Shown: positions 5,244 through 56,439 of the stretch, one piece after another
How the letters are laid out: each line of letters begins with the position of its first letter
Numbering within the stretch: position 1 is the stretch's first letter
Assembly: GCF_007828725.1 (NCBI RefSeq)
Contig: NZ_VIUW01000005.1
Coordinates: forward strand, 124,001-188,000
Direction: 5' to 3'
Length of the DNA stretch: 64,000 nucleotides
Source of the DNA: Marihabitans asiaticum
GTDB lineage: Bacteria > Actinomycetota > Actinomycetes > Actinomycetales > Dermatophilaceae
The notes under the pieces: model-generated
Database searches by the model: none
Seen by the model: the letters and a program-made list of their open reading frames with translations, nothing else
What the model was told of the DNA's origin: nothing
Made by a program: the position numbers and the translations under genes

Positions 5244-6343
5244 GGGGTCACTCTTGCAGAAGCCTGCGAGCGGGGCATCAGACCTCGGGATGAAGCCGCG
5301 CCCGACTGCGGGAGGACGCTCACCCCTTCGCCGTCGCCCGCCGCCAGCGCGAGGAGACGCTCCGCCTTCAGCTCGGTCTCCGACCACTCCGCTCGCGCGT
5401 CCGAACCCCAGGTGATCCCCGCGCCGGTCCCGAAGCGCAGCACCCGCCCTTCGCCGCTCTCCTCGACCCAGAACGTGCGGATCCCGACCGCCAGCGCCGC
5501 CGAGCCGGCATAGGCGTCGACCCAGCCGATCGCCCCGCAGTACGGGCCCCGCGGCACCGGCTCGAGGTCGCCGATGATCCGCAGCGCCGAGGACTTCGGG
5601 GCCCCGCTGACCGATCCGGGTGGGAAGGTCGCGGCGAGGATCTCGCCCCACCCCGCTCCCGGCCGGACCCGTCCGCAGACCTCGCTCGTGAGATGCAGCA
5701 GGCCGGGATGCTCCTCCACCGCGCACAGCGACGCGGTCTCGACGGTCCCAGGCACCGCGACCTGGCCGAGGTCGTTGCGCACGAGGTCGGTGATCATGAC
5801 GTTCTCCGCGTGGTCCTTGGCGCCGAGGTCCGCCCGCTCCCGCCCGGTTCCCTTGATCGGGCGAGAGACGAGCCGATCGCCGTCGCGGAGGAGATAGGCC
5901 TCGGGCGAGGCGCAGACGACGTCGAGACCGGCTTCGGGCACGTGGATAGTCCCGGCGAAGGGGGCGGGGTTGCCGGCGTCGAGCAGCGGCGCCAGCGCGG
6001 GGAGGTGGCTCGTCCGGGGCAGCGGGGTGGAAAGCACGCGGCAGAGGTTGACCTGGTAGACGGTGCCGTCGGCGACGTGGCGCCGGATCGTCTCGACCCC
6101 GGCGATGTAGGCGTCCCGGTCGAGCGAGGAGTGCCAGGGCTCGGCCGGTGGCTGCCAGGTCGGCGAAGGGGGCGGCCCCCCTTCGCCCATCCGGTCGAAT
6201 CGGACCGCGGTGAGCCGCCCCTCGAAGGTGACGACGACGGCCCATCGCCCGCCGGCATCGAGGTCACCGACGTCGTGGGTCACCGCGCTCGGCTCGGTGA
6301 GGACCGTGGTCCCGAATCGCGCGAACTCCACGGGCGCGAGCAT
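5240..6343 (-). CDS. pabB: Aminodeoxychorismate synthase component I
   Basis: This 367-residue chorismate-binding enzyme adds ammonia from a glutamine amidotransferase to chorismate to make aminodeoxychorismate. The conserved blocks are in order: GTVYQVNLCRVLS, SRPIKGTGRERADL (the PIKGT lysine separates PabB from the anthranilate synthase PIAGT), ITDLVRNDLGQVA, FPPGSVSGAPK, and FGTGAGITWGSDA. The protein is shorter than E. coli PabB and lacks much of the N-terminal tryptophan-binding domain, which is common for actinobacterial forms. No PabA amidotransferase is present in the window. It is coupled to pabC by an ATGA overlap. The coding strand contains an inverted pair of the CGAAGGGGG motif at 6164-6185. 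Confidence 0.9.
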   Translation of the reverse strand: MLAPVEFARFGTTVLTEPSAVTHDVGDLDAGGRWAVVVTFEGRLTAVRFDRMGEGGPPPSPTWQPPAEPWHSSLDRDAYIAGVETIRRHVADGTVYQVNLCRVLSTPLPRTSHLPALAPLLDAGNPAPFAGTIHVPEAGLDVVCASPEAYLLRDGDRLVSRPIKGTGRERADLGAKDHAENVMITDLVRNDLGQVAVPGTVETASLCAVEEHPGLLHLTSEVCGRVRPGAGWGEILAATFPPGSVSGAPKSSALRIIGDLEPVPRGPYCGAIGWVDAYAGSAALAVGIRTFWVEESGEGRVLRFGTGAGITWGSDARAEWSETELKAERLLALAAGDGEGVSVLPQSGAASSRGLMPRSQASARVTP

Positions 6344-15264: not shown

Positions 15265-15687
15265 ATGGAATCCACCGGTAGCCAGTACGACGTGACGAAG
15301 ACCGACGAGCAGTGGCGCTCTGAGCTGAGCCCCGACGAGTACTCGGTGCTGCGCCAGGCGGGCACGGAGCGCCCCTTCACCGGGGAGTACACCGACACCG
15401 AGACCGAAGGGGTGTACGCCTGCCGTGCCTGCGGCGTCGAGCTCTTCACCTCTCAGACGAAGTTCGCCAGTCACTGCGGATGGCCGAGCTTCTACTCCCC
15501 GCTGGCCGGTGACAGCGTCGAGTACATCCAGGACGACTCCCTGCCCGGCCGTCCCCGGGTCGAGGTCCGCTGCGCGTCCTGCGGCAGCCACCTCGGGCAC
15601 GTCTTCGAGGGCGAGGGATATGACACCCCGACCGATCAGCGCTACTGCATCAACTCGATCGCGATGACCCTGCGCCCGACCACCTGA
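15265..15687 (+). CDS. msrB: Peptide-methionine (R)-S-oxide reductase
   Basis: This 140-residue enzyme repairs the R-form of oxidised methionine, using thioredoxin. Two zinc-binding pairs are visible (CRACG near residue 53 and CASCGSHLGHVF near residue 102). The catalytic cysteine lies in RYCINSIAM close to the C-terminus, and HCGWPSFY carries the conserved Trp and His. The start ATG 15265 is preceded by GAGGAGC. Length is typical. The stop codon shares its final base with the first base of the adjoining 61-bp repeat. Confidence 0.93.
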   Translation: MESTGSQYDVTKTDEQWRSELSPDEYSVLRQAGTERPFTGEYTDTETEGVYACRACGVELFTSQTKFASHCGWPSFYSPLAGDSVEYIQDDSLPGRPRVEVRCASCGSHLGHVFEGEGYDTPTDQRYCINSIAMTLRPTT

Positions 15688-15747
15688 TTATCGGGTTGAG
15701 GGACTTGTTGCACCTTCACCCGACTACCAACCTCGGGTGAAGGTGCA
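15687..15747 (+). repeat. Palindromic repeat family 1, copy A
   Basis: The unit begins ATTATCGGGTTGAGGGAC (outer arm). An inner inverted repeat follows (TTGCACCTTCACCCGA and its complement TCGGGTGAAGGTGCA) around a nine-base loop CTACCAACC. It matches copy B (16796-16856, opposite strand) in 59 of 61 positions. Copy A lacks the second outer arm on the side facing the nuclease gene. The inner arms would form a strong hairpin just after msrB and could also act as its terminator. Confidence 0.85.
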
Positions 15748-15766
15748 CGTTATCGGGTGAAGGCGC

Positions 15767-16678
15767 TCAGGCCGCGGTCGCGATCGCGATCGCGTCGCGA
15801 ACGGCCGCGATGAGCTGGGCCGGGCGGTAGAGGTCTGCCCAGACCACCCGCACCACGACGTAGCCCAGTCGCCGCAGTTTGTCCTCGCGCTTCTTCTCGC
15901 GGAAGAGGGCGTCGGCGCCGCCGTCGGTGTACTTGACCTTGCCGTCGACCTCGATGATCACCTTCGCCCCGTCGACGACCAGGTCGGCCCGCGCCACCGC
16001 GCGTCCCGAGGGATCCTTGATGACAACCTGCGGGGTCGTGCGGATACCAACAGCGCGAAGGTGGGCCCGCGTCAGGGTCTCGCCGGGAGACTCCGAGCGG
16101 CCGTCGGCCCACGCCAACGCGCAGGTGACCCGCGACGAGCGTGGCCAGCCGCGCACCTGGGCCGCGGCCTCGTCGAGCTGGCCCGCGGTGGTCAGCTCGC
16201 GGTGCAGGGCAGCGTCGATCGGGGGCATCGCCCGGAGGATGCCCACATCCATCGCCATCTGGATCAGCGCCGCTGGCAGCGGGTCGCTGGGCCCCGCGGG
16301 TGAGTCGGCCCGCTCGTGCCGGATCGGCCGGATCCGGAAGTCGGTGGTGAGCACCTCTTGTCGTACCGGACGAGCGAGGTCCAGCCGTGCGACCGGGACG
16401 TCGACCACCGGCAGCCCCCATGCCGCGACCGTCGCGCTGCTGCTCAGCTGAGCGTCTGGGTAGAGCCGCAGAGCGGCGATGCTGAGGAGCGCACGATGGT
16501 CCTCGGCGCGTTCGGGGATGCGTGCGCAGCTGGCGCCGCGGGTCAGGCTCGAGAGCATGCCTCGGCGGCGCGCTTCGCGCATCGCCTGGTCGCTCACCCC
16601 CGCCGCGCGGCTCTCTCGCCGAAGGATGACCCCGTTGCCGTCGCGCAGCAGGAGCTCGATGGTGCTCGTCTCGTCCAT
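15767..16678 (-). CDS. DUF559/Vsr-like endonuclease-domain protein with AbiEi-type N-terminus
   Basis: This is a 303-residue protein starting at ATG 16678. The N-terminal ~60 residues (LLLRDGNGVILRRESRAAGV, then QAMREARRRGMLSSLTRG) look like the winged-helix seen in AbiEi-type antitoxin proteins. The C-terminal third has a restriction-endonuclease-like core: ADLVVDGAKVIIEVDGKVKY supplies the D...E-x-D-G-K acidic and lysine positions, followed by REKKREDKLRRLGYVVVRVVW as in DUF559 and Vsr proteins. These are widespread in actinobacteria with unknown function. No partner AbiEii toxin gene is adjacent. It is bracketed by near-identical inverted repeats, 19 bases beyond its stop and 117 bases before its start. 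Confidence 0.75.
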   Translation of the reverse strand: MDETSTIELLLRDGNGVILRRESRAAGVSDQAMREARRRGMLSSLTRGASCARIPERAEDHRALLSIAALRLYPDAQLSSSATVAAWGLPVVDVPVARLDLARPVRQEVLTTDFRIRPIRHERADSPAGPSDPLPAALIQMAMDVGILRAMPPIDAALHRELTTAGQLDEAAAQVRGWPRSSRVTCALAWADGRSESPGETLTRAHLRAVGIRTTPQVVIKDPSGRAVARADLVVDGAKVIIEVDGKVKYTDGGADALFREKKREDKLRRLGYVVVRVVWADLYRPAQLIAAVRDAIAIATAA

Positions 16679-16795
16679 GCGGCGAGCCTTCCCTGGGCGA
16701 ACCACGGGGTCGGGCCGCACGCCGGGCCTGTGGGTAGCCGGTCGGCTCCTGAGCAACCTGTGGACGACTCCCCCTTCGCGCTGGACCCGAGAAGT

Positions 16796-16856
16796 TGCAC
16801 CTTCACCCGAGGTCGGTAGTCGGGTGAAGGTGCAACACGTCCCTCAACCCGATAAT
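16796..16856 (-). repeat. Palindromic repeat family 1, copy B (inverted relative to copy A)
   Basis: Read on the minus strand it starts ATTATCGGGTTGAGGGAC and continues with the inner hairpin arms and the loop CTACCGACC. It differs from copy A at two positions. The second outer arm, on the side facing the nuclease gene, is missing as in copy A, so the two copies are mirror images around the gene. The hemQ stop lies 25 bases beyond, with a CGAAGGGGG motif in between. Confidence 0.85.
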
Positions 16857-16881
16857 TGGGGGACGGGGAGGCGAAGGGGGG

Positions 16882-17601
16882 TCAGCGCAGGCGGTCGACG
16901 AGGTCGGCGACCTCGACCCGAGGGCCGGTGTAGAACGGGATCTCCTCGCGCACGTGCAGGCGCGCCTGCGAGGCACGCAGCTCGCGCATGAGGTCGACGA
17001 TGCGGTGCAGCTCGTCGGCCTCGAAGGCGAGCACCCACTCGTAGTCCCCGAGGGCGAAGGCGCTGATCGTGTTGGCACGCACGTCCGGGTAGTCCCGGGC
17101 CATCGCGCCGTGCTCGGCGAGCATCGCGCGCCGCTCCTTCTCGTCCATGACGTACCAGTCGTAGGACCGCACGAAGGGGTAGACGCACAGGTAGTCGCGC
17201 TGCTCCTCGCCGGCCATGAAGGCCGGGATGTGGCTGCGGTTGAACTCGGCCTGACGGTGGATCGCGGCGACCGACCACACCGGCTCCAGATGAGCGCCGA
17301 GCTCGGTGCGCAGGAAGCGGTGGTAGGCGTCCTGGAGTTGTTCGATGGTGTCGGCGTGCCACCAGATCATGAGGTCGGCGTCCGCACGCAGGCCGGCGAC
17401 GTCGTAGACCCCGCGGATCGTCACCCCACCCTCGGTGAGCTCGCCGAAAAGCCCCTCGACCTCGGCGGCGAGCTGCTCGCGCGGGCCCTCGCCGAGCGGC
17501 GTGGTCACCGCGAAGACCGAGAACATCGCATAGTGGATCGAGCTGTTGATCGCCTCGAGCTGATCGCGGCTGGGCTTCTTCGGGACCGGGCGGGTACTCA
17601 C
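16882..17601 (-). CDS. hemQ: Coproheme decarboxylase (hydrogen-peroxide-dependent haem synthase)
   Basis: This 239-residue protein of the chlorite-dismutase fold makes the last step of the coproporphyrin-dependent haem pathway, removing two carboxyl groups from coprohaem. SSIHYAMFSVFAV opens the fold. YPFVRSYDWYVMDEKERRAMLAEHGAMARDY carries the conserved catalytic Tyr region and the His haem ligand of actinobacterial ChdC. FALGDYEWVLAFEADEL closes the second half. The start overlaps the hemY stop (ATGA), so translation of the pathway enzymes is coupled. Confidence 0.93.
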   Translation of the reverse strand: MSTRPVPKKPSRDQLEAINSSIHYAMFSVFAVTTPLGEGPREQLAAEVEGLFGELTEGGVTIRGVYDVAGLRADADLMIWWHADTIEQLQDAYHRFLRTELGAHLEPVWSVAAIHRQAEFNRSHIPAFMAGEEQRDYLCVYPFVRSYDWYVMDEKERRAMLAEHGAMARDYPDVRANTISAFALGDYEWVLAFEADELHRIVDLMRELRASQARLHVREEIPFYTGPRVEVADLVDRLR

Positions 17602-26424: not shown

Positions 26425-26425
26425 C

Positions 26426-26481
26426 GCCCCCTACCACGCAGTACTGGTCGTGATCACGACCAGTACTGCGTGGTAGGGGGC
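26426..26481. repeat. 56-bp perfect palindrome (repeat family 2, copy 1)
   Basis: Every base from 26426 to 26481 pairs with its mirror position around the central TGATCA, with no loop. The arm reads GCCCCCTACCACGCAGTACT and continues GGTCGTGA to the centre. It starts directly after the fadB stop and ends 77 bases before the antiporter start. A diverged second copy lies at 29391-29440. Perfect palindromes of this length without a spacer are usually unstable, so its retention is notable. As RNA it would be a strong terminator hairpin. Confidence 0.9.
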
Positions 26482-26546
26482 TCGTCGGGGGCTGGGGGGG
26501 GACGGCGAGAGCGAAGGGGGTGAGCCGCGCCGTCGTCGTCCTGGAC

Positions 26547-29355: not shown

Positions 29356-29390
29356 CCCCTTCGCCCCGCTCCCCGTCCCCGCCCGACGCC

Positions 29391-29440
29391 CGCTACCACG
29401 CAGTACAGGTCGGGATCACGACCAGTACTGCGTGGTAGCC
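29391..29440. repeat. Diverged palindrome (repeat family 2, copy 2)
   Basis: The arms CTACCACGCAGTAC (29393-29406) and GTACTGCGTGGTAG (29425-29438) are identical to those of the palindrome at 26426-26481, with substitutions near the centre (ACAGGTCGGGATCACGACC). Sequence to its left also resembles a flank of copy 1, including a CCCCTTCGC motif, so the repeated unit is longer than the palindrome. It lies in the 139-base gap between the pseudogene and murA, 20 bases before the murA -35 box. Confidence 0.8.
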
Positions 29441-29460
29441 GGGTGGTCGGCGCGTCATGC

Positions 29461-31054: not shown

Positions 31055-31090
31055 AGAGCGAAGGGGGGCCACCCGGCCCCCCTTCGCTCT
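31055..31090. terminator. murA terminator built from an inverted pair of CGAAGGGGG motifs
   Basis: A perfect 16-bp stem, AGAGCGAAGGGGGGCC (31055-31070) and its complement (31075-31090), with loop ACCC, begins 21 bases after the murA stop. Each arm contains one copy of the dispersed 9-mer motif. It lies between murA (+) and dxs (-) and can serve both directions. Confidence 0.8.
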
Positions 31091-31096
31091 GCTCAG

Positions 31097-31180
31097 TTAT
31101 CCGGGTTGAGGGGGTTGTTGCACCTTCACCCGACTACCGACCTCGGGTGAAGGTGCAACTAGTCCCTCGACCCGATAATT
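31097..31180 (+). repeat. Palindromic repeat family 1, copy C (complete solo copy)
   Basis: This copy has both outer arms (TTATCCGGGTTGAGGG at the left, CCCTCGACCCGATAAT at the right), both inner arms (TTGCACCTTCACCCGA and TCGGGTGAAGGTGCAA) and the loop CTACCGACC, all in the orientation of copy A. It is a full nested palindrome of about 84 bases. Its right outer arm is inside the 3' end of dxs. Confidence 0.88.
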
Positions 31181-56358: not shown

Positions 56359-56367
56359 CGCCGCGCC

Positions 56368-56417
56368 GGTCGAGGTAGGTCTGGCGCGTCCAGCCGGGCG
56401 CGTCTACCTCTACCCGG
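56368..56417. terminator. Imperfect hairpin between convergent parC and permease genes
   Basis: GGTCGAGGTAG (from 56368) can pair with CTACCTCTACC (to 56416) across a partly paired G+C-rich middle. It is 10 bases after the parC stop, and the permease stop lies 23 bases beyond. A bidirectional terminator is the simplest reading. A CGAAGGGGG motif follows at 56418. Confidence 0.45.
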
Positions 56418-56439
56418 CGAAGGGGGGAGGAGTTTGGCG

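Follow-up and report, generated by a model that had tools for sequence, protein, structure and literature searches.

A nuclease gene between mirror-image repeats

The window analysed here is a 64,000-nucleotide stretch of the genome of Marihabitans asiaticum in which a gene encoding a 303-residue protein (P0001) lies between hemQ and msrB, flanked on both sides by a palindromic repeat (Table 1). The original prediction was of inverted 61-bp repeats around a single gene for a DUF559/Vsr-like protein. This was confirmed, no other gene being present between the two arms, which are 97% complementary over the 61-nt part and extend to 72 nt at 93%. Each arm is also palindromic by itself, its two sides pairing over 15-17 bp around a 9-nt interval. 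The copies are mirror images, as had been claimed, but their gene-facing side is not simply without an outer arm as was thought; a different, shorter arm, TTATCGGGTGAAGG or TTCTCGGGTCCAG, is found there. Since repeat A starts at the msrB stop codon and the outer end of repeat B lies approximately 25 nt past the hemQ stop codon, both outer ends face the 3' end of a gene.

Table 1. Features of the nuclease locus and a further copy of its repeat, in window positions
Feature	Position	Strand	Remarks
msrB (SelR domain)	15265..15687	+	context
Repeat A (palindromic element)	15687..15758	+	outer end toward msrB, inner end toward nuclease stop
Nuclease gene, 303 aa (P0001)	15767..16678	-	ATG start
Residues 197-303, Vsr/EDxHD homing-endonuclease-type catalytic domain (predicted)	15770..16090	-	
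Residues 1-192, AbiEi-antitoxin-type fold with winged helix (predicted)	16103..16678	-	presumed DNA-binding half
Repeat B (inverted copy)	16785..16856	-	inner end ~106 nt ahead of nuclease start
hemQ (chlorite dismutase family)	16882..17601	-	context
Solitary symmetric copy of the repeat	31097..31179 (C5:155097-155179)	.	between two convergent genes

Flanking repeats were scored as the best local alignment of the upstream flank of a gene with the reverse complement of its downstream flank, with a threshold of 40. The window nuclease gene scored 121 whereas the best of 144 other genes, drawn from the window and 27 homologue loci, scored 37. A known RNA family was considered as the identity of the repeats and ruled out: Rfam gave no match at E<=1 in window 15500-17000 and, at nine loci, no family lying over the repeats. 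The msiK RNA of L073 lies far from the repeats, and a tRNA at L032 is some 20 nt beside the repeat without overlapping it.

The protein is predicted, with no biochemistry on cutting to draw upon, to consist of an AbiEi-type DNA-binding half fused to a nuclease of the Vsr/EDxHD homing-endonuclease type. This prediction rests on an AlphaFold2 model (mean pLDDT 96) in which residues 2-192 resemble AbiEi (6y8q; Z 10.7, rmsd 6.3, 178 aligned) and residues 197-302 the catalytic domain of I-Bth0305I (3r3p; Z 9.5, 2.7 A, 97 aligned). The match to Vsr itself (1vsr; Z 6.8, 2.8 A, 99 aligned) is less distinct, with unrelated rows giving similar Z values, and the list of structure matches was restricted to Foldseek's own candidates. 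An AbiEi profile matched the protein with an E value of 2.3e-8; Pfam returned only weak matches below the cut-off, to MTES_1575, DUF559 and AbiEi, and an NCBIfam search gave nothing useful. Residues E200, D232, E243, D245, G246 and R264 are the same in all 51 homologues of the alignment. Relatives of P0001 at E<=1e-5 were present in 31 of the 35 genomes searched, its own included. To our knowledge no role has been assigned to these relatives.

Bracketing of nuclease homologues by inverted repeats

A nuclease gene was found between hemQ and msrB in four of 29 hemQ loci from relatives (G002, G009, G013 and G022). Seven Janibacter loci, which had been chosen for encoding a relative of the nuclease, carry one there as well, one of them being the G002 locus again. 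Wherever both flanks could be read, in ten distinct relatives (L063, L064, L036, L068 and L092-L097), inverted palindromes bracket the nuclease; nine of these loci score 73-157 and L036 was judged by eye. L100, with only one readable flank, is outside this set. The palindromes are largely unlike the window repeat in sequence. According to the original prediction, orthologues at this locus without the repeats would have refuted it. The window 61-bp sequence itself has no match in the genomes of 57 relatives, but those read with the gene here carry other palindromes in its place. A conclusion that the finding was refuted, the repeat being scattered and absent from 57 relatives and the gene syntenic, was thus overturned by palindromes of different sequence bracketing the relatives' gene. 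The gap between hemQ and msrB without a nuclease measures approximately 20-135 bp in G001, G003, G014 and G019, and by eye no such repeat pair was seen in these four. One of them, G001 (L034), belongs to the same genus; hemQ and msrB are adjacent there without a nuclease or such repeats, providing a natural empty site. The nuclease is only about 45-50% identical to its Janibacter orthologues, compared with about 77-88% for hemQ and msrB, and so diverges faster than its neighbours.

The association of these genes with inverted flanking repeats was established against control genes. A score of 40 was reached by 13 of 17 nuclease genes, compared with none of 144 other genes, across the window plus 27 loci of homologues (L092-L118). 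These 28 loci yielded only 17 called nuclease genes with 300-bp flanks. The 17 include L095, whose gene call was too short (score 26), and several are Janibacter orthologues and therefore not independent.

A class-wide comparison with one gene per genome gave scores of at least 40 for 20 of 40 genes, against 1/306 shifted controls from the same loci and 5/311 cross-locus pairs; at a threshold of 50 the figures were 14/40, 0/306 and 1/311. The 40 are solitary MTES_1575-type genes with open frames of 290-470 aa, picked by hand down the match list, and the selection has faults: an eligible gene (G112) was overlooked, a match at a contig end (G122) was swapped for another, and L187 is the same gene as L085. 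The geometry of this test was fixed relative to the stop codon, a design chosen after the result of an earlier version with codon-model gene starts had been seen. That version gave 7/34 nuclease genes at or above 40 and 1/107 other genes; six of its 40 loci were without a called gene and many starts were called too short. In a de-duplicated set 35 of 49 loci reached the threshold. These remained from 61 genes after 11 had been dropped as duplicates or fragments (including L036) and one more for a short flank; a first survey of 60 scored loci includes near-duplicates and some misplaced flanks. In the three sets, 4/17, 20/40 and 14/49 homologues fall below 40.

The arms have a tight geometry: in the 29 loci scoring at least 50, the upstream arm ends a median of 103 nt ahead of the start codon and the downstream arm begins 7 nt past the stop. 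In 28 of the 35 bracketed loci the inverted score exceeds the direct score, which equals or exceeds it in the other seven. Direct scores, for which there is no control of their own, reach 40 in 30/49 loci, mostly because the arms are palindromes. Three nuclease homologues (L078, L106 and L090) have direct rather than inverted flanking repeats, that of L078 being 226 nt long. The original prediction had proposed a repeat-coupled nuclease comparable to the REPINs that flank RAYT genes, and this is borne out to the extent that inverted repeats recur on both sides of DUF559-type genes well beyond the window locus.

Dispersed repeat families and their link to the enzymes

The window repeat was observed as a dispersed family in its own genome, with 19 matches at 13 sites and 82-100% identity. 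Two of these sites bracket the nuclease gene, one more lies in the window (at 31097) and ten are elsewhere. A symmetric outer arm, a form of CCCTCAACCCGATAA, is present in four other genome copies, the remaining copies being asymmetric. A separate sequence, CCCCCTTCGC / GCGAAGGGGG, recurs at 30 places in the window (for example at 6163-6186 and 31058-31087), twice as a hairpin, and also adjoins several copies of the repeat; it may be a common terminator of the genus.

Five such nuclease genes are present in this genome, the other four being 32-36% identical to the window gene, and every one of the five is flanked by inverted repeats of a sequence peculiar to it. Two of the pairs are strong (window 121, L030 130) and three weak (L031 58, L032 45, L029 40). 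The L030 repeat has approximately 28 further sites in the genome and that of L032 has seven; for L031 one further copy (C4:144031) was found among the matches listed, and for L029 none at E<0.001 among the best 40 of 123 candidates. The L030 repeat (1405-1490 and 2478-2563; own genome C2) is frequently arrayed in tandem, with some 45 bp from unit to unit, as at C4:326575-326823, and the unit shows weak folding only. As a control, 12 intergenic pieces of the window were searched in the same genome (best 40 of 379 candidates): nine matched only themselves, one had a single 29-nt match elsewhere and two proved to be dispersed repeats. These are two further palindromic families without a known partner gene. 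One, CCCCCTACCACGCAGTACTGG..CCAGTACTGCGTGGTAGGGGG (window 26425-26496 and ~29382-29450), has 24 genome sites among the matches listed (best 40 of 379 candidates); by eye, no nuclease was seen among the open reading frames between its two window copies and no partner gene was identified. The other (window 56359-56430) has eight further genome matches, three of which lie 64 bp apart at C4:336175-336359.

When 24 flanking repeats were searched in other genomes, that of L107 not being among them, at least 14 of 23 showed copies at sites other than the nuclease locus among the matches listed. The true number may be higher, as no more than 15 candidates per genome were scored; the count includes three Janibacter genomes matched through the repeat of a sister species, their own not being in the query. 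The remaining nine genomes showed no copy away from the nuclease among the matches listed. Nocardioides limicola (G065) has 15 sites including the flanking pair. The Janibacter-type repeat was found in 16 of 186 genomes of the family, namely G002 and 15 that belong to another genus, so that two of 53 genera are represented; in this search it was not found in G000 or G001.

The Janibacter element is made up of GATTCTCGGGTSACCCGAGAA at the distal end and CTCTTGC on the gene side, with a long hairpin of about 24 bp in the middle. In 34 gapless copies 92.6% of the stem cells pair (shuffle maximum 84.2%), changes on both sides occur at 13 of 24 pairs, and double-change cells number 82 (shuffle maximum 43). 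Shuffles did reach the observed 23 extra pair types, and the small distal stem gave no covariation signal. One of 35 rows had been dropped for a gap and the relatedness of the copies was not corrected for.

Thirty solitary copies (11 of the window family, 12 from J. indicus and 7 from J. terrae, all best-scoring matches, with genes called by a codon model) fall between convergent genes in 21 cases and tandem genes in eight, with none between divergent genes and one unclear; a baseline of 50 spacers of at least 60 bp gave 10 convergent, 28 tandem and 12 divergent. The distal end points toward a 3' end in 25 of 29 copies, or 21 of 25 when the four symmetric copies, in which 'distal' is arbitrary, are left out. 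The original prediction would have been refuted by repeats scattered at many gene ends without association with DUF559 genes. Copies do scatter at gene 3' ends, yet each family remains linked to its nuclease. Presence and absence of solitary copies between species was observed by eye. The element at J. indicus site L199 is missing in J. terrae, where approximately 15 bp separate two stop codons, and that at site L189 is missing in J. hoylei; at site L196 both J. hoylei and J. terrae carry variants whose stems have changed. Also by eye, no clean target-site duplication was seen at the sites compared, the empty sites differing around the insertion.

One account of the repeats is that they are ordinary intrinsic terminators or chance hairpins. 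Their position behind stop codons and their hairpin shape are what such an account would expect, but it is hardly credible given that the window repeat forms a 13-site family of 82-100% identity, that no pairs were found at the 144 control genes, that nine of 12 control intergenic pieces matched only themselves and a tenth had one 29-nt match (two being dispersed repeats; best 40 of 379 candidates), and that flanking repeats are dispersed in at least 14/23 genomes.

A tree of 51 proteins places the window gene in a clade with seven Janibacter/G002 genes at hemQ-msrB (support 100/99), within a wider clade of 17 rows (96/94). The motif TT[AC]TCGGGT/ACCCGA[GT]AA is present in both flanks of 11 of these 17 members and in the flanks of none of the 34 other proteins, the host's own four paralogues included, so that the motif demonstrably follows the clade. 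This association in part reflects relatedness within Janibacter, but L064, L065 and L070 come from other genomes, and L065 and L070 also from other loci. The 12 genes at hemQ-msrB do not form one clade and require five changes on the tree, at least three of them forced by supported branches. Across genera, therefore, this place has not been filled by simple vertical descent, and in the more distant ones it has been filled or vacated more than once.

The original prediction also allowed that the nuclease might be cargo, bracketed by chance by two palindromes that another enzyme moves, and the presence in the same genome of dispersed palindromic families without a known partner is compatible with this. 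This cargo reading finds little favour, since one type of enzyme is bracketed over and over by different repeats: in 20/40 genes class-wide against 1/306 controls, and at all five genes of this genome. In addition, the motif tracks the nuclease clade and other types of gene are bracketed in 0/144 cases. We regard the cargo explanation as very unlikely.

Possible mechanisms and comparison with known systems

Our preferred reading, held with moderate confidence, is that the AbiEi-Vsr/EDxHD nuclease and the short palindromes are partners in an arrangement resembling REPIN-RAYT in its working, though with an unrelated enzyme, which acts in trans; the binding, cutting and spread or maintenance of the palindromes are all inferred. 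Recognition of a palindrome by its nuclease is supported, although there are no binding data; mobilisation of the repeats by the nuclease is an inference, and mobility of the nuclease-palindrome unit as a whole has not been shown. Within Janibacter the nuclease gene would stay put, with its cognate palindrome on either side in mirror-image orientation. The AbiEi-type half would recognise that palindrome and the nuclease half would nick or cut at it, and repair or copying of the hairpin or cruciform may then give rise to new solitary copies. These would be tolerated mainly right behind stop codons, where they may do least harm.

Alternatively, the nuclease and its two repeats could be an ordinary autonomous IS-like transposon, with the palindromes as terminal inverted repeats and the solitary copies as MITE-like deletion products. 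A single gene in tight geometry between two inverted ends has that appearance, solitary copies are present or absent between species, and members of the window clade occur at other loci, the hemQ-msrB genes needing five changes on the tree. This explanation is nevertheless rather improbable. The own genome has no near-identical full copies, the other four genes being 32-36% identical (this genome only), the Janibacter genes sit at a single place and group with the window gene in a supported clade, and no clean target-site duplication was seen. Searches of 72,556 plasmid and 50,697 phage records likewise gave no relative of P0001 at 1e-5, and so no support for carriage on plasmids or phages. 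A resident enzyme acting in trans is favoured over a jumping unit because of the constant place in Janibacter, the diverged single copies in the own genome and the lack of plasmid and phage matches.

It is also possible that the repeats are regulatory binding sites of the AbiEi-type half, an operator upstream of the gene and terminator-like 3'-end structures elsewhere, with no spreading by the nuclease. AbiEi and the related protein Rv2827c bind inverted repeats located in the promoters of their own genes, and autoregulation is described for the AbiEi family (PMC7319586). Solitary copies do lie at gene 3' ends, and those of Janibacter form strong hairpins with covarying arms. The upstream copy of the repeat could indeed be an autoregulatory operator. 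As a full account, however, regulation alone seems unlikely. An operator leaves unexplained the mirror-image copy right behind the stop codon, the different dispersed families that accompany each nuclease of one genome, and the insertion-like presence and absence of copies.

If these nucleases do own palindromic repeats, a role would be provided for a common group of proteins and several repeat families would be explained at once. As one genome has five enzymes with five different repeats, the co-specificity of enzyme and repeat is directly testable.

The partnership preferred here shares features with several known systems. The EDxHD/Vsr-like homing endonucleases such as I-Bth0305I resemble the window protein in the predicted fold of the catalytic domain (Z 9.5, 2.7 A, 97 residues) and in conserved acidic residues; in contrast to these, the window nuclease is a free-standing gene, has an AbiEi-type half and is linked to dispersed palindromes. 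The AbiEi antitoxins of type IV toxin-antitoxin systems are similar in the N-terminal fold and profile match and are known to bind inverted repeats (PMC7319586), but lack the fused nuclease domain. Unlike in AbiE, no AbiEii nucleotidyltransferase toxin adjoins the window gene, its neighbours being hemQ and msrB. The window-type repeats are, like MITEs, short, non-autonomous, palindromic and present or absent between species, while differing in the lack of a multi-copy autonomous partner in the own genome; nor was a clean target-site duplication seen. In the open PubMed Central literature, as represented by titles and the starts of abstracts and leaving out preprints and most subscription journals, no description was found of these nucleases with palindromic repeats.

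The parallel drawn in the preferred reading is with REPIN-RAYT. A RAYT was ruled out as the owner of the repeats, no Y1_Tnp (PF01797) gene being found in the own genome at E<=0.001 by a search that was positive in five of 14 control genomes. RAYTs are single-copy and vertically inherited. In the REPIN-RAYT system (TnpA-REP, IS200/IS605-related HUH Y1 enzymes), the enzyme gene lies near inverted palindromes and short palindromes are dispersed extragenically in the same genome (PMC3116915), as is the case here. The window enzyme differs in having a predicted AbiEi and Vsr/EDxHD fold rather than HUH, and the elements, found here in actinobacteria, are approximately 70-80 nt long. With no RAYT-type enzyme, and yet appearing to work like one, the system may be a convergent analogue of REPIN-RAYT with an unrelated enzyme and, if so, an independent replicate of REPIN-RAYT evolution. 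Whether, across the class, the REPIN-RAYT way of life has arisen a second time we judge to be evenly balanced; fast-diverging AbiEi-Vsr/EDxHD nucleases, several per genome, would then each maintain private palindromes in trans, co-evolving with them as parallel systems that do not cross-react.
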